A stretch of 38,816 bases of DNA from Clostridia bacterium (GTDB lineage: Bacteria; Bacillota; Clostridia; Oscillospirales; CAG-272), in NCBI GenBank assembly GCA_017463665.1, contig JAFTOT010000090.1:1-38816 (forward strand), in the 5' to 3' direction. Both the position numbers and the translations under genes were made by a program. This document shows positions 24,400 to 38,428 of this stretch, one piece after another (positions within the stretch are counted from its first letter, which is position 1; each line of letters starts with the position of its first letter). The notes beneath the pieces are model-generated. The model was not told where the DNA came from and searched no databases. It saw only the letters and a program-made list of their open reading frames with translations.

Positions 24400-26715
24400 A
24401 TGGCGCAGCGAAATGTGAACAGTGTAACAGCTAAGCGTGGCTTTATATTGCTCGCATTTTTTGCGTTATTGGCGGCTGCGCTTGTCTGCGTTATTTTTAA
24501 GATGCAGGTGTTCGAGTATGACAAATATCAGCAAGAAGTCATTGACCAAATTACAGTAGAGAATTCCGTTGCCGCGAAACGCGGCGATATTTACGATCGC
24601 AATATGAATGTGATCGCCACCAATCAGACTACATGGCGCGTTTTTATTTCGCCTGTTGATATTCAAACCGCGGTTTATTCGTCGGCGATCGAACGCGCTA
24701 TTTATCGTGTTCGTTACGGCGAAAGCCTTTCGGTTTCGGCGAAAGGTGACAGACAGGATGAATTGATCGCGGACGGTCTTTCGGAAATTCTCGGCGTAGA
24801 CCGCGACTCTATCCTTGCCAAAACTGCAAAGGCAGGGCGGCGCGATGAGACGATCAAAAAGAATGTGGATAAAGAAACGGCTGACAAGGTGCTTGCCTTT
24901 ATCAAGGAAAACGGTCTTGAACGGCAGATACACCTTGAAGCTACCAACAAGCGCTATTATACCTATAGCAGCCTTGCCGCCCAGACGATCGGTTTTACGG
25001 GCGCTGACGGTCAGGGGCTTTACGGTCTCGAATACATGTACAACGAAGAGTTGACCGGCGTTGCAGGTAAATATATCATCGCGCAGGATGCACACGGCGA
25101 TGAAATGGCATATAATTACGAGAGCTATGTTGAGCCGATCAATGGATATAATATGATCACCACGATCGACGAGCGCATTCAGCAGGAGTTGGATACGCAA
25201 GTCAAGGCGACCGTTGAAGAGAATGCCCCGAACAACCGTGCGGTCGGTATAGCCATGAATCCCAAGACCGGTGAAATATATGCAATTTCGGTGCAGCCGG
25301 ATTTTGACTTGAATGATCCCTATACGCTCGATGCACTGTCGCAGGCGACGCTGGAAGCCAGCGGCTTTGAGGAGGGCAGCGAGGAGTATAAAAAGCTGTT
25401 GTCCGAACTTCGGCAGGTTATGTGGAGCAATAAGGTAACTACCGATGCATATGAGCCGGGTTCTACCTTCAAGCCGATCACGACTGCCATGGCGCTGGAG
25501 GAAGGTGTCGTTACTCCTACCGAGACCTTTACTTGCACAGGCGGTCTGCTTGTCAGCGGATGGCCGCATCCGATCAAATGCCATAAAACCACGGGGCACG
25601 GTACAGTGACCTTTACACGCGGCTTACAGCAGTCCTGCAACCCTGTGCTGATGACCATCGCGGCAAGAGTCGGTGTAGAAAAATTCTGCAGCTACTTCGA
25701 GTCGTTCGGTTACTTGGAAAAGAGTGGGATCGATCTTCCCGGTGAAGCGAAGACGATCTTCTTTGATCGCAACACGATGGGCAACGTTGACCTCGCCGTC
25801 GCATCCTTCGGTCAGCGCTTCAATGTCAATCCCGTTACGCACTTAACGGCGCTTTGCGCGATCGCAAACGGCGGCTATCTGGTTACACCGCATTTGCTGG
25901 ATAAGTTTGTGGATGACGAAGGCAATGTAGTGTATGAATATGACAACGCACCGAGACGGCAGGTGATCAGCACCGCGACCGCGAAGACTATTACCGAGAT
26001 TCTGGAAGCAGGTGTTTCGGGGGATGGCGGTGCAAAGAATGCTTACGTTAAAGGATATAAGGTAGCGGCGAAAACGGGTACGACCGAAAAGGGTACTACG
26101 AATGATTCAAAACGCATCAGCTCTACAATTGCGTACGCGCCTGCGGATGATCCGCAGATCGCTGTGCTCATCATGGTAGATGAACCGACCGGAGACAGCG
26201 TATACGGCAGCGTGGTCGCGGCTCCGTATGTTTCGGCATTTTTGGCAAATGTTCTGCCGTACATGGGCATCCAACCGACCTACAGCGATGAGGAACTTGC
26301 CACTATGCAGGTGACCGTTGCGCGCTACATCGGCAGCAGTGTTTCCGACGCAAAGGCACAGATCGAAAAGCTCGGACTTAAAGTGGACGTCATCGGCGGC
26401 GGAGATACCGTCACCGCGCAGGTTCCCAAGCGAGGCAGTGCGGTTTCCAAAGAAAGCGGAAAGGTGATCCTTTACACCAACGATGCCGATCCGGAGAGCA
26501 AAACAGTTACGGTACCGAGCGTGCTCGGATTGACCGCGGCGCAGGCGAATACGAAGCTTGTGAATGCGGGGCTGAATATAGAGATCAAAGGTGCGCAGAA
26601 TTATGATAAAGGCAGCGGTGCGATCGTGACATCGCAATCCTATGCCGCCGGCGCTTCGATACCGTACGGCACGGTCATCACCGTGGAAGTATTGCACATG
26701 GATGCAACGGATTAA
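24400..26715 (+). CDS. spoVD: Class B penicillin-binding protein with PASTA domains (SpoVD/Pbp2-type transpeptidase)
   Basis: The product has 771 residues. An N-terminal signal-anchor helix (about 14-36) is followed by the dimerisation domain with AAKRGDIYDRN. The transpeptidase domain has the Ser355 nucleophile in PGSTFKP (SxxK), the SCN motif in LQQSCNP, and KTG at Lys558 (AAKTGTTEKG). Two PASTA domains complete the protein (about 640-705 and 706-768). It cross-links septal or spore cortex peptidoglycan. The start is ATG 24400 with AAAGGAG upstream. In the dcw clusters of sporulating Firmicutes this position is held by pbp2b and/or spoVD; one gene is here, so it may do both jobs. Which of the two it is cannot be told by eye. 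Confidence 0.92.
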   Translation: MAQRNVNSVTAKRGFILLAFFALLAAALVCVIFKMQVFEYDKYQQEVIDQITVENSVAAKRGDIYDRNMNVIATNQTTWRVFISPVDIQTAVYSSAIERAIYRVRYGESLSVSAKGDRQDELIADGLSEILGVDRDSILAKTAKAGRRDETIKKNVDKETADKVLAFIKENGLERQIHLEATNKRYYTYSSLAAQTIGFTGADGQGLYGLEYMYNEELTGVAGKYIIAQDAHGDEMAYNYESYVEPINGYNMITTIDERIQQELDTQVKATVEENAPNNRAVGIAMNPKTGEIYAISVQPDFDLNDPYTLDALSQATLEASGFEEGSEEYKKLLSELRQVMWSNKVTTDAYEPGSTFKPITTAMALEEGVVTPTETFTCTGGLLVSGWPHPIKCHKTTGHGTVTFTRGLQQSCNPVLMTIAARVGVEKFCSYFESFGYLEKSGIDLPGEAKTIFFDRNTMGNVDLAVASFGQRFNVNPVTHLTALCAIANGGYLVTPHLLDKFVDDEGNVVYEYDNAPRRQVISTATAKTITEILEAGVSGDGGAKNAYVKGYKVAAKTGTTEKGTTNDSKRISSTIAYAPADDPQIAVLIMVDEPTGDSVYGSVVAAPYVSAFLANVLPYMGIQPTYSDEELATMQVTVARYIGSSVSDAKAQIEKLGLKVDVIGGGDTVTAQVPKRGSAVSKESGKVILYTNDADPESKTVTVPSVLGLTAAQANTKLVNAGLNIEIKGAQNYDKGSGAIVTSQSYAAGASIPYGTVITVEVLHMDATD

Positions 26716-26771
26716 AAGAAAGCGGAATTTCATAAAAACGGACGTGAAAGTATCAACTTTCGGAGGTTTTT

Positions 26772-28268
26772 ATGGAGCTTGCAAAACTTTTAGCCAATAC
26801 AGATATCCCTCTCGGCGAGGAACTCGCAGCGCTGGAGGTGCACGGTGTATCCTATGATACCCGCCGCTTGCAGCCGGGCGATGTGTTTATTGCTCTCGGC
26901 GGTACCAAGACCGATGGCAGCCGATACGCGCTCGATGCAGAGCAGCGCGGCGCGGCGGTGTATATCGGAGAAAAAGCCGTCAGCGGTTTGCACATTCCGC
27001 AGCTGCTGACCGAGAACGCGCGCCGCACGCTGGCTTTTGCCTGCGCTAACCAAAATGGGAATCCCCAAAATCGCATGCGTGTTATCGGCGTCACGGGCAC
27101 CAACGGAAAGACTACCACCGCCTACATGCTGCGCACCATTCTCGCGCACAGCGGCTATAAAACCGCTTTGATCGGTACGGTCAAAAGCATGATTGGGGAG
27201 CAGGACTACTTACCGAGACTTCCCGAGGCGCAGCAGGACAACTTCACTACCATGACAACGCCCGATCCCGATGTTTTATATATGGCAATGCGGGAGATGG
27301 CGGAGCAGGGGGTGGAGATCCTGGTTATGGAGGCTTCTTCGCACGCGCTCGCGCTGGAAAAACTGGCGCCGATCGCATTTGCGCTCGGCATATTTACCAA
27401 CCTCAGTGAGGAGCATCTCGATTTTCACGGCACGATGGAAAACTATCTTGCCGCCAAGGCAAAGCTCTTTCGGCGTTGCCGCCTGGGGCTTTACAATGCG
27501 GACGATGCGTATGCCGCGGCGCTGTTGGAAAAGGCAAACTGTAAAACCGTCGGCTTCGGCATGCGGCAAAAAAGTGACTACTACGCGGAGCAGATCCGTC
27601 AAAACGGTGTGTTCGGCAGTGAGTATATCCTACATTCCAAGAACGCAAGATTCAAAATTAAAACGACAATTCCCGGCGATTTCACGTTGTACAATACACT
27701 TGCCGCCGCAGCTGCGGCACGGGAGATGGGCGTGGATCTGATGAATATTCAAAACGCGCTGTATTCGCTCAACGGCGTCTGCGGCAGGCTGCAGAGAGTG
27801 GATCTCGGCTTCGCGGGGAATGCATTTACGGTGTTTATTGATTATGCACATACGCCGTACGCCCTCGAAAATCTGCTGCGCACCGTTAACGGTTTTCGCA
27901 GTGCGGGGCAGAGGATCGTGACACTCTTTGGCTGCGGCGGTGACCGCGACAAGGAAAAGCGCCCGATCATGGGAGCACTCGCCGTTCGCATGAGCGACTA
28001 TGTGATCCTCACGGGCGACAACGCGCGTACAGAAGATCCGCAAGCGATCCTATCGGATGTGCTGGAGGGCATGCAAGGCGCGAAAAATTACACTGTGATC
28101 GAGGATCGCCGCGAGGCGATCGAATATGCGATCGAAAACGCTCTGGAGGGCGACATTATCCTGCTCGTGGGCAAGGGACATGAGCAATATGAAATTGATA
28201 AAGACGGTCTGCATCCGTTTTCCGAAATTGAGATCGCGGAAAAGGCTGCGGAAAAAAGAAGAAAATAA
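26772..28268 (+). CDS. murE: UDP-N-acetylmuramoyl-tripeptide synthetase MurE
   Basis: The product has 498 residues. It adds the third amino acid to UDP-MurNAc-L-Ala-D-Glu using ATP. The ATP P-loop is GVTGTNGKTTTAYML (about 107-120). Other family motifs are DNFTTMTTPDP, MEASSHAL, LTNLSEEHLDFHGTMENY and FIDYAHTPYALENLL. The specificity loop reads GDNARTEDP where meso-diaminopimelate enzymes usually have DNPR. The Arg that binds the DAP carboxylate is kept, so meso-DAP is the likely substrate. Start ATG 26772 has GGAGG. A small inverted repeat (GAAAGT/ACTTTC, 26746-26761) lies just before that site. Confidence 0.96.
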   Translation: MELAKLLANTDIPLGEELAALEVHGVSYDTRRLQPGDVFIALGGTKTDGSRYALDAEQRGAAVYIGEKAVSGLHIPQLLTENARRTLAFACANQNGNPQNRMRVIGVTGTNGKTTTAYMLRTILAHSGYKTALIGTVKSMIGEQDYLPRLPEAQQDNFTTMTTPDPDVLYMAMREMAEQGVEILVMEASSHALALEKLAPIAFALGIFTNLSEEHLDFHGTMENYLAAKAKLFRRCRLGLYNADDAYAAALLEKANCKTVGFGMRQKSDYYAEQIRQNGVFGSEYILHSKNARFKIKTTIPGDFTLYNTLAAAAAAREMGVDLMNIQNALYSLNGVCGRLQRVDLGFAGNAFTVFIDYAHTPYALENLLRTVNGFRSAGQRIVTLFGCGGDRDKEKRPIMGALAVRMSDYVILTGDNARTEDPQAILSDVLEGMQGAKNYTVIEDRREAIEYAIENALEGDIILLVGKGHEQYEIDKDGLHPFSEIEIAEKAAEKRRK

Positions 28269-34073: not shown

Positions 34074-34138
34074 ATATATGTATTGCTCCATTAACGCAGT
34101 TTTTAAAGATTTATCATAGATTTCGGAGGACAGAAAAA

Positions 34139-35242
34139 ATGAGTTTTGAACTGGATGAAGCCATGGACAACGGCGTTTGTCTGAAGGTTGTCGGCGTAGG
34201 CGGCGGCGGAAACAATGCTGTCAACAGAATGGTCGCTACAGATATTCGCGGCGTTGAGTTTATTTGTGTCAACACGGACAAGCAGGTGCTTGTAAATTCG
34301 GGCGCAACGCAGAAGGTCACCATCGGCGAAAAGATCACGCGCGGTCACGGCGCGGGTGCAAATCCCGAGGTTGGTAAGCGCGCTGCCGAGGAGAGCATCG
34401 ACGATATCAAGAACGCTCTTGCAGGCGCAGACATGGTATTCATTACTGCCGGCATGGGCGGCGGTACCGGTACGGGCGCAGCCCCCATCGTTGCGAGAAT
34501 TGCAAGAGAAATGAACATCCTCACGGTCGGTATCGTTACCAAGCCGTTTAGCTTTGAGGGCAAGAGAAGAATGGATCAGGCAGAGGTCGGTATCGAGGCT
34601 CTGCGCGAGTTTGTTGACTCTCTGATTGTTATTCCCAATGAGAGACTCAAGCAGGTTACCGATGAGCGCATCACACTTGCAAACGCATTCAGCATCGCAG
34701 ATGATGTACTTCGCCGCGGTGTACAGAGCATTTCCGAGCTGATCAGCGTTCCCCAGTTCATCAACCTTGACTTTGCAGACGTGACCGCGATCATGAAGGA
34801 TGCGGGCAACGCACACATGGGCGTCGGCAGCGCAACCGGTAAGGACAAGGCTGTTCTGGCTGCAAAGGCTGCAATTTCCAGCCCGCTGCTCGAGACCTCT
34901 ATCGAGGGCGCTACCGGTATTCTGATTTGCATTACTGCTTCTCCCGACATCGGACTGGAAGATGTAGATATTGCTTCGCAGATGGTAGCAAGCGAGGCAC
35001 ATCCCGATGCAAACATCATCTGGGGTGCCGCACTGGATCCCAGCCTCGAGGACGAAATGCGCGTAACCATCGTTGCAACCGGTTTCAAGAAGGATAAGTC
35101 CGAGAAGGTACACGGCAATCCCAAGCCTGCAGATGCTCCCGCACCCAAGGTACAGGATGTTCCCGTAGCAGAGGAGCCTGCTGCCCCCAAGGATGACGAC
35201 GATATCAGCGATCTGATCAAGATGCTCAACGGCGGCAGATAA
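34139..35242 (+). CDS. ftsZ: Cell division GTPase FtsZ
   Basis: The product has 367 residues, a tubulin-like GTPase that forms the Z-ring. The nucleotide-binding [11 protein letters not shown] (about 21-31) and the tubulin signature [10 protein letters not shown] (about 108-117) are intact, as is the T7 loop region with [16 protein letters not shown] Pro/Ala-rich linker ends in a short acidic tail, [10 protein letters not shown]. There is no ftsA next to it, so membrane tethering may depend on SepF encoded elsewhere. It has its own promoter, GGAGG before the ATG and a strong terminator. Confidence 0.98.
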
Positions 35243-35256
35243 GTAACCGAATACAT

Positions 35257-35284
35257 AAAGGCAGTTCGATCGAACTGCCTTTTT
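35257..35284 (+). terminator. Rho-independent terminator after ftsZ
   Basis: A perfect palindrome with left arm AAAGGCAGTTCGA and its complement TCGAACTGCCTTT, followed by T residues to 35284. Confidence 0.93.
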
Positions 35285-35285
35285 C

Positions 35286-35315
35286 ACGCATTCCTCCCCT
35301 CGCTCATATTCTGTA
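35286..35315 (+). promoter_or_regulatory. Candidate sigma-K/sigma-E-type promoter of dpaAB
   Basis: AC at 35286-35287, a 17-bp spacer and CATATTCT (35305-35312) fit the loose sporulation consensus AC-N16/17-CATANNNT. The -10 lies in the loop of the hairpin below. dpaAB is sigma-K controlled in B. subtilis; no sigma-A promoter is seen here. Confidence 0.4.
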
Positions 35316-35328
35316 AGCGAGGGGAGGA
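35292..35328 (+). promoter_or_regulatory. Hairpin that sequesters the dpaA Shine-Dalgarno
   Basis: Perfect 13-bp arms, TCCTCCCCTCGCT (35292-35304) and AGCGAGGGGAGGA (35316-35328), with an 11-base loop. The right arm contains the ribosome site GGGGAGG of dpaA. No T run follows, so it is not a terminator. Confidence 0.7.
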
Positions 35329-35336
35329 TGCTTTAC

Positions 35337-36233
35337 ATGTATGCAACTGTAAAAATTGGAATACTTGGCGGCGATATGCGCCAAACTGCATTGGCACGCC
35401 GCCTCTCGGAAATGGGGTTTGAAACTGCGACATGGGGACTTTCGCGCGATGCGGACATCGGGCAGGCGGTGCGGTGCAGCGATTGGCATGATGCCGTCCG
35501 ACAGTGCAAAGCGGTGATACTGCCGCTGCCTGTGTCCAAAGACGGTGTGCGGATCAATGCGCCGTTTGCTGCGGGAGAAGAACTGCGCATGTCGCATTTG
35601 ATACATGCAATCTCCGCCGATACATTGCTGATCGGCGGTAAATTTGATTTTGGAATCAAGGAAGCCGCAAAGGAAAATGCGATATCTTTGCTGGATTATT
35701 TCGAATGTGAGGAACTGCAGATCAAAAATGCGGTGCCGACAGCGGAGGGCGCACTCGAGATCGCCATGCATGAAATGCCGATCACGGTGTTTGGCTCCAA
35801 GGCGCTTGTCTGCGGCTACGGACGCATCGGCAAGGTGCTTTCTGCAATGTTGAAAAATATCGGCGCGGAAGTGACCGTATCCGCAAGGCGGCAGGAAGAT
35901 CTCGCGTATATTGCGGTCTCAGGACATCGGGCGGTGCGTTTCGGCAGCGAAGAATTCCGCAGTGCTGTCGAACAGGCAGATGTGGTCTTCAACACCGCGC
36001 CCGCCAAGATCTTAGACCGAGCATTGATCGAGAGTATGCGCCGTTGCTGCTTGATCGTGGATCTCGCATCGGGCAAGGGCGGTGTGGATTTCGGCGCGGC
36101 AGAGTCCTGCGGCATCAAAGCGATCCATGCGCTGTCGCTGCCCGGCAAGGTGGCACCTGTGACAGCCGGCGGCATCATTTGCGATTGCGTACTCGAACTT
36201 TTGGCAAGAGAGGGAGTGATCGCAAGGCTATGA
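35337..36233 (+). CDS. dpaA: Dipicolinate synthase subunit A
   Basis: The product has 298 residues. With DpaB it makes dipicolinic acid from a dihydrodipicolinate-pathway intermediate in the mother cell of sporulating cells. It has an N-terminal domain (ILGGDMRQTALARRLSEMG) and a Rossmann NAD(P) domain with ALVCGYGRIGKVLSAMLKNIG, then VDLASGKGGVDF and LPGKVAPVTAGG. I chose ATG 35337, which is 9 bp after GGGGAGG; an in-frame ATG at 35328 touches the ribosome site and is unlikely. The site is locked in a hairpin. The stop overlaps the dpaB start. Confidence 0.93.
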   Translation: MYATVKIGILGGDMRQTALARRLSEMGFETATWGLSRDADIGQAVRCSDWHDAVRQCKAVILPLPVSKDGVRINAPFAAGEELRMSHLIHAISADTLLIGGKFDFGIKEAAKENAISLLDYFECEELQIKNAVPTAEGALEIAMHEMPITVFGSKALVCGYGRIGKVLSAMLKNIGAEVTVSARRQEDLAYIAVSGHRAVRFGSEEFRSAVEQADVVFNTAPAKILDRALIESMRRCCLIVDLASGKGGVDFGAAESCGIKAIHALSLPGKVAPVTAGGIICDCVLELLAREGVIARL

Positions 36234-36790
36234 TCGGATATGCATTTTGCGGATCGTTCTGCACGCTTGGAAAATCCTTTTCATTGTTTCAAAAAATGAT
36301 CGCAGACGGCAAAGAAATTCTGCCGATCGTCAGCGAAAATGTATATACTATAAATACCCGCTTTCAAGATGCCAAATCATTTTGCGCGAAGCTGGAAAGT
36401 GCGAGCGGAAACAAGGTGATACATACTATTGCCGATGCGGAGCCGCTCGGACCGAAGATCGCTTTGGAATGCCTCGTGATCTGCCCCTGCACGGGCAATA
36501 CGCTTGCCAAAATTGCAAACGGGATCACCGACACCGCGGTTACAATGGCTGCAAAAGCGCATCTGCGCTCCGACCGCACCCTCGTCATCGCGCTTGCTTC
36601 CAACGATGCGCTGTCTGCCAATTTAAAAAACATCGCGACGCTGCTGGAGCGTAAAAACGTCTATTTTGTTCCGATGGTGCAGGATGATCCCGTGAACAAA
36701 CCGCACTCGCTGGTTGCTGATTTTTCAAAATTGGAGGAGACGCTGGAGCTCGCAAAACAGGGAAGACAACTGCAAAAAATCTTTATTTGA
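36230..36790 (+). CDS. dpaB: Dipicolinate synthase subunit B (flavoprotein)
   Basis: The product has 186 residues of the flavoprotein fold seen in DpaB/UbiX-like proteins. GYAFCGSFCTLGKSF at the start and CPCTGNTLAKIANGITDTAVTMAAKAHLR-like motifs (the FMN-type site) are visible. It is the partner of DpaA in dipicolinate formation, which gives spores heat resistance. Start ATG 36230 overlaps the dpaA stop by ATGA. A longer frame reads dpaA in another phase and is not real. The 135-bp gap after it contains a candidate spore promoter. Confidence 0.93.
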   Translation: MIGYAFCGSFCTLGKSFSLFQKMIADGKEILPIVSENVYTINTRFQDAKSFCAKLESASGNKVIHTIADAEPLGPKIALECLVICPCTGNTLAKIANGITDTAVTMAAKAHLRSDRTLVIALASNDALSANLKNIATLLERKNVYFVPMVQDDPVNKPHSLVADFSKLEETLELAKQGRQLQKIFI

Positions 36791-37148: not shown

Positions 37149-37175
37149 AGGCACCCGATCATCGGGTGCCTTTTT
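37149..37175 (+). terminator. Rho-independent terminator after the SASP gene
   Basis: The stem AGGCACCCG / CGGGTGCCT (extendable inward) is followed by five T. Confidence 0.93.
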
Positions 37176-37188
37176 CGTTGGAAGCCGC

Positions 37189-37217
37189 TTGACTTTTTTG
37201 CGGCTATACCATACAAT
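37189..37217 (+). promoter_or_regulatory. Sigma-A promoter of the nucleotidyltransferase-fold gene
   Basis: -35 TTGACT (37189-37194), a 17-bp spacer and -10 TACAAT (37212-37217). The -35 is flanked by the inverted repeat AGCCGC (37183-37188) / GCGGCT (37200-37205), which could be an operator. Confidence 0.7.
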
Positions 37218-37261
37218 ATTAACAGTACATTCAGATGATTTGCAAAAAAACGGAGAATATA

Positions 37262-38428
37262 ATGAATACGATAGAACGTGTAATTGTTTCACTTGTAAAA
37301 AGTGCGATCGACGGTTCGCGCGCTGAAGTGCCCGCGGATGCAAATTGGAAAGATATCCTTCGGATTGGTGAGAGGTACAAGGTTATTCCGCTGCTGTATC
37401 AGGGAGTGACTAATTCGGAAATTTCCGTACCGGAGACGGTTATGGGTCGGATGCAAAACATTGTGCTTTCCAACCTCATGTTGGATCAAAAACAGCTGTA
37501 TGAACTTTCAAATTTGCAAAAAGCATTTGATGAAAACGGAATCGACTACATGCCGGTAAAAGGGATACTGATGAAGGATTTGTACCCCAATACCGAATTG
37601 CGTCCGATGGGGGACGGCGATATCCTTATCCGAATGACACAAAAGGAAAAGATCGCCGATGCCATGGATCGCTTGGGGTATGTGTTTGCGTATGAATCCA
37701 CGCATGAATGGGCGTTTGACAAAAACGGTGTGCATGTGGAGCTGCACAAACGTTTGATCCCTTTGCAGAACACCGATTATTGCGCCTATTACGGTGACGG
37801 TTGGAAATTCGCAAAAGAAACGGGGAACGGCACGCGCTACGCCCTGAGCGATGAGGATCATTATATATATATATTTACGCATTTTGCAAAGCACTATCGT
37901 GATGGCGGTATAGGTGTGTTGCACATGGCGGATCTGTGGATCTATACGCGCGAAAAAAACGTGCAGACCCCCTATGTGCGTGCGGAACTCGAAAAGCTGG
38001 ACTTGCTTCGTTTCTATGATAATGTTTTTGAAACGATCCATGCATGGTTTGAGGGCGGACCGCAAACGGAGATGACGGAGTTTATTACCCGGCGTATATT
38101 CAGCTATGGAAGATGGGGGACGGAGACCAGCCGGATCATGGCAAAAGGGGTGCGGGATTCAAAGTCCGTTCCTTTGGGAAAACTGCGCGTGAAGCAGATC
38201 ACAGAGGCGATGTTTCCCGGCATGCTGAGAATGCAGTACCGTTATCCCATTTTGCAAAAATACGGTTTCTTATTGCCCGTCATGTGGATCGCACGGTGGT
38301 TTGATTTTTTACTTTTTAAGCACGACCGCATACGCGACAAAGTGAAGGCGATCAAAATATCGACTGAGGACAATGTTTCGGCTTATCAAAACGAGTTGGA
38401 TTATGTGGGATTGGACTATAACTTTTAA
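37262..38428 (+). CDS. Nucleotidyltransferase family protein (NTP_transf_5-like)
   Basis: The product has 388 residues. The central motif PVKGILMKDLYPNTELRPMGDGDILI, seen around residues 95-120, matches the PF14907 pattern of a KG motif followed by R..GD.DIL, a member of the Pol-beta nucleotidyltransferase superfamily. HVELHKRLIP and FTHFAKHYRDGGIGVLHMADLWIY continue the family pattern. Members often lie in polysaccharide or peptide biosynthesis loci, but the function here is unknown. Start ATG 37262 has GGAGAA at good spacing; a 9-codon longer form is possible. It stands alone between the SASP gene and an rRNA operon. Confidence 0.8.
   Translation: MNTIERVIVSLVKSAIDGSRAEVPADANWKDILRIGERYKVIPLLYQGVTNSEISVPETVMGRMQNIVLSNLMLDQKQLYELSNLQKAFDENGIDYMPVKGILMKDLYPNTELRPMGDGDILIRMTQKEKIADAMDRLGYVFAYESTHEWAFDKNGVHVELHKRLIPLQNTDYCAYYGDGWKFAKETGNGTRYALSDEDHYIYIFTHFAKHYRDGGIGVLHMADLWIYTREKNVQTPYVRAELEKLDLLRFYDNVFETIHAWFEGGPQTEMTEFITRRIFSYGRWGTETSRIMAKGVRDSKSVPLGKLRVKQITEAMFPGMLRMQYRYPILQKYGFLLPVMWIARWFDFLLFKHDRIRDKVKAIKISTEDNVSAYQNELDYVGLDYNF

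Follow-up and report, generated by a model that had tools for sequence, protein, structure and literature searches.

A hairpin enclosing a sigma-K-type promoter probably locks the dpaA ribosome site in read-through RNA of a Clostridia bacterium

The window analyzed here covers positions 1 to 38,816 of contig JAFTOT010000090.1 (assembly GCA_017463665.1), from a Clostridia bacterium placed in CAG-272 of the Oscillospirales. The vegetative gene ftsZ is followed on the same strand by dpaA and dpaB, which encode the two subunits of dipicolinate synthase, and the interval between ftsZ and dpaA holds an intrinsic terminator, a putative mother-cell promoter and a hairpin that takes in the dpaA Shine-Dalgarno (SD) sequence (Table 1). 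The identity assigned to the gene behind ftsZ in a first-pass annotation, made from the letters alone, is borne out by its NCBIfam profile match; the score against another model, TIGR02853, is below that model's cutoff. The 5' end of dpaB overlaps the 3' end of dpaA. A minus-strand ORF at 34103-35287 was taken as a shadow of ftsZ, and the in-frame TGA flagged in several dpaA genes is the normal stop. Further downstream lies a gene (37235-38428) for which NCBIfam gave no match. CATACAAT stands ahead of it, with AC 16 bp farther upstream (window 37150-37260), and these elements make it a possible further mother-cell gene.

Table 1. Coordinates of features in the ftsZ-dpaA-dpaB region of the window
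Feature	Position	Strand	Evidence or remark
ftsZ, co-directional vegetative gene upstream of dpaA	34139..35242	+	NCBIfam TIGR00065, 418.7 bits vs cutoff 295.2
Intrinsic terminator, 11-bp stem then TTTTT	35257..35284	+	fold -16.2 kcal/mol, z -5.0
AC, sigma-K-type -35 element	35286..35287	+	17 bp before CATA
Lock hairpin, left arm (core 35292-35304, extension 35288-35291)	35288..35304	+	sequence, folding
CATATTCT, sigma-E/K-type -10 element, inside the loop	35305..35312	+	CATAnnnT conserved in dpaA leaders
Lock hairpin, right arm, contains the dpaA SD	35316..35331	+	sequence, folding
Predicted transcription start (~+/-2 nt)	35319..35319	+	set 14 nt downstream of the first CATA base
dpaA, dipicolinate synthase subunit A	35337..36233	+	NCBIfam NF006162, 282.7 bits vs cutoff 261
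dpaB, dipicolinate synthase subunit B	36230..36790	+	NCBIfam NF006161, 241.1 bits vs cutoff 156

The dpaA leader contains a hairpin in which the left arm TCCTCCCCTCGCT (35292-35304) and the right arm AGCGAGGGGAGGA (35316-35328) form 13 perfect pairs around an 11-nt loop, CATATTCTGTA (35305-35315). The stem is extended past a bulged T by pairing of GCAT (35288-35291) with ATGC (35328-35331). The SD, GGGGAGG (35321-35327), lies within the right arm, ahead of the ATG at 35337, so that sequence and folding both confirm the 13-bp stem with the ribosome site as its right arm that was described at first pass. Folding of 35270-35360 gave -34.5 kcal/mol (z -5.3 against dinucleotide shuffles), and folding of 35285-35350 gave -31.3 kcal/mol (z -6.1). 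The stem sequence has no second copy within the sampled third of the genome, and an Rfam search for riboswitches, thermometers and sRNAs returned only two matches, both far below the gathering score.

In order to place this hairpin among other leaders, the SD opening cost was computed as the energy needed to free the SD in a transcript with 65 nt upstream, using a 587-kb sample (about one third of the genome) in which 471 genes were scored. The predicted cost for dpaA in read-through RNA is 25.7 kcal/mol, which ranks first of the 471; the runner-up stands at 14.4 kcal/mol and the 99th percentile at 12.8. For a short RNA starting near 35319 the predicted cost falls to ~2.4 kcal/mol, and 35319-35370 has only a weak predicted fold, which supports the earlier expectation that such an RNA would leave the SD free. 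When upstream parts were shuffled, three of 398 genes of this genome, dpaA included, exceeded a z of 4. The extreme SD lock with its nested sigma-K-type promoter is probably functional. Two other structured start regions were observed. In the leader of a Mur-ligase-like gene at 26772 (window 26690-26775) the start region is sequestered (z 4.9 with shuffled upstream parts), and on contig C46 of the same genome (L155:12740-12830) the start region of a gene beginning MYKFGVFFKK is strongly structured (z 6.0), with CATACGGT located 29 nt upstream of its SD.

The promoter was compared across 93 dpaA leaders from the same taxonomic family and order. In 85 of them CATAnnnT occurs no more than 110 nt from the SD, and in most leaders AC lies 16-17 bp upstream of CATA. 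The leader in the window, with AC, a 17-bp spacer and CATAnnnT, matches the sigma-K pattern. The start at 35319 was placed by distances from -10 element to start that we take to be general. In published C. difficile data, the -35 element is AC for sigma-K and ATA for sigma-E, the -10 elements are very similar, and dpaAB is under sigma-K control (PMC3789822). These elements and the 85 leaders agree with the first-pass suggestion of a mother-cell sigma promoter built on AC and CATA, and conservation makes a sigma-K-type mother-cell promoter in the dpaA leader well established at the level of sequence.

An intrinsic terminator that had escaped the first-pass annotation stands between ftsZ and the hairpin (35257-35284). 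A terminator-like hairpin and T-run, read from the sequence, likewise occur just before AC in all four of the genus relatives whose dpaA follows ftsZ. A strong terminator in this position means that only leakage should arrive at the lock. The proposal that the hairpin guards dpaA against read-through from ftsZ thus keeps its predicted SD-hiding structure, but narrows to leakage. The SD stem itself does not have the form of an intrinsic terminator in the window or in the sister species G005, where it is followed by ATGCTTTACATG and no U-tract.

The search for loci related to the window returned the sister species only. G005, whose species is also represented by the goat-caecum MAG record L055, has a dpaA that is 91% identical. 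Of its 17 pairs, 15 are intact despite six differences in the left arm, and one pair has undergone a double change from C-G to T-A. Three leaders from other species of the genus (L003, L004 and L019) share the order ftsZ, terminator, promoter and dpaA and retain AC and CATA, and in them the SD lock is weak or absent (z -2.0, 1.3 and -3.4, respectively, by the SD-only measure with a motif-based start). The first-pass annotation had proposed a comparison of related leaders for a conserved loop motif and a covarying stem; the CATA is conserved and the G005 stem carries its paired change, but the strong stem is not kept in these three species. In the L019 leader (dpaA of G001; L019:1400-1520), the left arm seems to base-pair with the opening codons of dpaA and not with the SD, possibly as a different lock on the start region.

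Locks were scored by three measures: the SD only with a motif-based start, the SD through the start codon, and a motif-free SD. By the motif-free measure, the number of leaders that exceeded every one of 49 shuffles was 8/93 for dpaA, 16/71 for spoIVA, 1/28 for spoIIIAA and 0/29 for ftsZ. Locks with unrelated stems enclose the dpaA promoter in other genera (L011, L083, L016 and L021). L021 belongs to a different family, and the gene upstream of its dpaA looks like clpX, with the domains AAA_2 and ClpB_D2-small. A similar layout is found at spoIVA in many genera, as in CCTCCCATATATT...GGGAGG. Swapping upstream parts between leaders separated the two genes: nine dpaA leaders lay beyond all 40 swaps where 2.3 were expected, versus two spoIVA leaders where 1.7 were expected. 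This indicates that in spoIVA a shared CCTCC element, able to pair with any SD, makes up part of the left arm, and that dpaA locks are leader-specific. L071 scored high by the motif-based measure, but its CATA assignment is doubtful and it is not beyond all shuffles in the motif-free test; it was dropped.

Some individual leaders are recorded here as observations. Perfect SD stems surround the -10 element at spoIVA of G001 (L129; 10 bp, ATCCTCCGCT/AGCGGAGGAT) and of G003 (L128; 9 bp, TTTTCCCTC/GAGGGAAAA), and the spoIVA lock is weak in the window's own genome. On contig C1 of that genome (L096:13425-13480), the leader of an Amidase_3 (Pfam) gene reads CCTCGC ... CATATACT ... GCGAGG, with the -10 element in the loop, and forms a second, weaker SD lock. 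The CCTCGC/GCGAGG pairing is present in two of three relatives (L157 and L159) and lost in L158.

If the locks act on read-through, they would be expected behind co-directional genes. Calls of upstream genes rested on codon score and not on annotation, and kinship was collapsed at genus level only. By the motif-free measure, the upstream gene is co-directional in 15/15 locked versus 29/48 unlocked spoIVA leaders (p 0.002), and in 7/8 locked versus 43/81 unlocked dpaA leaders (p 0.06). Collapsed per genus, the association is p 0.12 for dpaA alone; with dpaA and spoIVA pooled, 17/18 locked and 43/86 unlocked genus units have a co-directional upstream gene (p 0.0003). When the start codon is counted in the measure, the dpaA association falls short of significance (p 0.12-0.49). 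Together, the dpaA and spoIVA leaders support the recurrence of such locks, with a co-directional gene upstream.

The locked leaders appear in two forms. The SD stem is followed by a T-run, which constitutes the spacer between SD and ATG, in most spoIVA leaders with a lock and in some of the dpaA leaders (L083 being the best). The longest T-run is greater in locked than in unlocked leaders, both at spoIVA (4.25 vs 1.76, p 2e-5) and at dpaA (3.25 vs 1.28, p 8e-5). In many T-run leaders the distance from stop codon to ATG is only 54-112 nt and a separate terminator is not seen. Taken with the T-run, this spacing suggests that the hairpin in such leaders is probably the upstream gene's own terminator with the SD and promoter folded in. 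The spoIVA leaders L162, L203, L208, L210 and L214 have terminator-like hairpins of this kind, in which the SD forms the right arm, the U-tract fills the gap from SD to ATG and a mother-cell -10 element lies inside. The window and G005 differ, having a separate terminator and no U-tract behind the stem. We tentatively suggest, as an idea that may or may not hold, that overlap of promoter, SD and hairpin is a recurrent, re-invented insulation of sporulation genes behind vegetative genes in this gut Clostridia family. It would take two forms, a terminator with the SD as right arm and a U-tract spacer, and a plain SD lock preceded by a separate terminator, with RNA from the nested promoter escaping both.

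With regard to sporulation capacity, spoIVA and spo0A were found in the window's genome, and neither this assembly nor G005 yielded genes for sigma-E or sigma-K (completeness 84% and 75%, respectively). An rpoD-like match was likewise absent from both, and for this reason the missing sigma-E and sigma-K genes are read, in an unproven interpretation, as missing sequence and not as loss. Both genes are present in G002, and a sigma-E-type match in G003 exceeds the family cutoff.

It is hypothesized, and we consider it likely, that the dpaA leader is a lock against read-through, with the promoter nested inside it, serving as a second layer of insulation behind the terminator. In growing cells, RNA leaking past the terminator would fold, the SD would be hidden and DpaA would not be translated. 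During sporulation, sigma-K RNA polymerase would start inside the right arm, giving an mRNA that lacks the left arm and has a free SD. Dipicolinate synthase production would in this way be confined to the mother cell. The switch envisaged in the first-pass annotation is partly supported. The first rank among 471 genes, the conserved promoter, the predicted release from 25.7 to 2.4 kcal/mol, the pairing in G005, the recurrence, the gene context and the presence of spoIVA and spo0A argue for a lock. On the other side, the upstream terminator may leave little read-through to block, the three other species of the genus lack a significant lock, the context association is weak for dpaA alone, and no sigma-E or sigma-K gene turned up in the assembly.

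That strong pairing arose as a local accident, from a strong SD beside pyrimidine-rich promoter DNA inherited by two sister species, is unlikely. It would account for the weak or absent lock in the three other species of the genus, and the spoIVA pairing, much of which survives upstream-part swaps, would suit it. The top rank of the dpaA opening cost, the excess of dpaA leaders beyond all swaps and the persistence of pairing through six left-arm differences in G005 all speak against it. It is quite unlikely that the hairpin is an intrinsic terminator overlapping the SD, with a sporulation promoter nested in it and the translation block as a side effect. The T-runs behind the SD stem in most locked spoIVA and some dpaA leaders, and their greater length in locked leaders, fit that explanation, but the window and G005 have ATGCTTTACATG in that place and a separate terminator just upstream.

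Two further explanations concern the inverted repeat itself and the origin of the transcript. The repeat encloses the -10 element, as a DNA operator for a promoter regulator such as SpoIIID or GerE might. A fixed protein site would be expected to conserve its sequence, yet the stems are unrelated between species while pairing to the local SD is maintained, and an operator in place of an RNA device is therefore very unlikely. Least credible is a thermosensor or ligand switch, with the hairpin acting inside a sporulation transcript that begins farther upstream; the conserved promoter places the start inside the right arm, and no Rfam family matched.

If the favored reading of a read-through lock is true, it shows how bacteria can hold spore genes silent immediately downstream of housekeeping genes, and RNA-seq coverage of dpaA or spoIVA during growth need not imply protein. 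What has been a side remark about B. subtilis sigG and a trick of phage T4 would then become a general plan for sporulation operons that can be tested. Searches confined to open-access literature returned no report of such an SD lock at dpaA or spoIVA.

The dpaA lock would follow a logic already known from two systems, and a wider design in the family is possible. In B. subtilis, a hairpin of 20+ bp was proposed to block translation of read-through RNA at sigG (spoIIIG), and it cannot form in RNA from sigG's own promoter (PMC5942855). Both are sporulation genes behind another operon, with a proposed read-through hairpin that own-promoter RNA would lack. However, sigG is a forespore gene with a sigma-F/G promoter and dpaA a mother-cell gene; the operon upstream of sigG, spoIIGA-sigE, is sporulation-specific and ftsZ is vegetative; and dpaA, unlike sigG, has a terminator in between and a -10 element in the loop. 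The dpaA-dpaB order and the AC and CATA elements are shared with C. difficile dpaAB, where the promoter is sigma-K-dependent and the consulted portion of the report mentions no SD lock (PMC3789822). In phage T4, the ribosome sites of the late genes e, soc and 49 and of the intron gene I-TevI are sequestered in long early RNA (PMC3014915, PMC2988022), and for gene e the structure was demonstrated to lower synthesis ~100-fold (PMC3014915). The late promoter and the 5' strand of this structure overlap, which leaves late T4 RNA free. The predicted dpaA arrangement shares the logic of gene e, with the SD hidden in long RNA and free in RNA from its own promoter, although the T4 case concerns phage timing and T4 late promoters, with no sporulation sigma factor and no homology.
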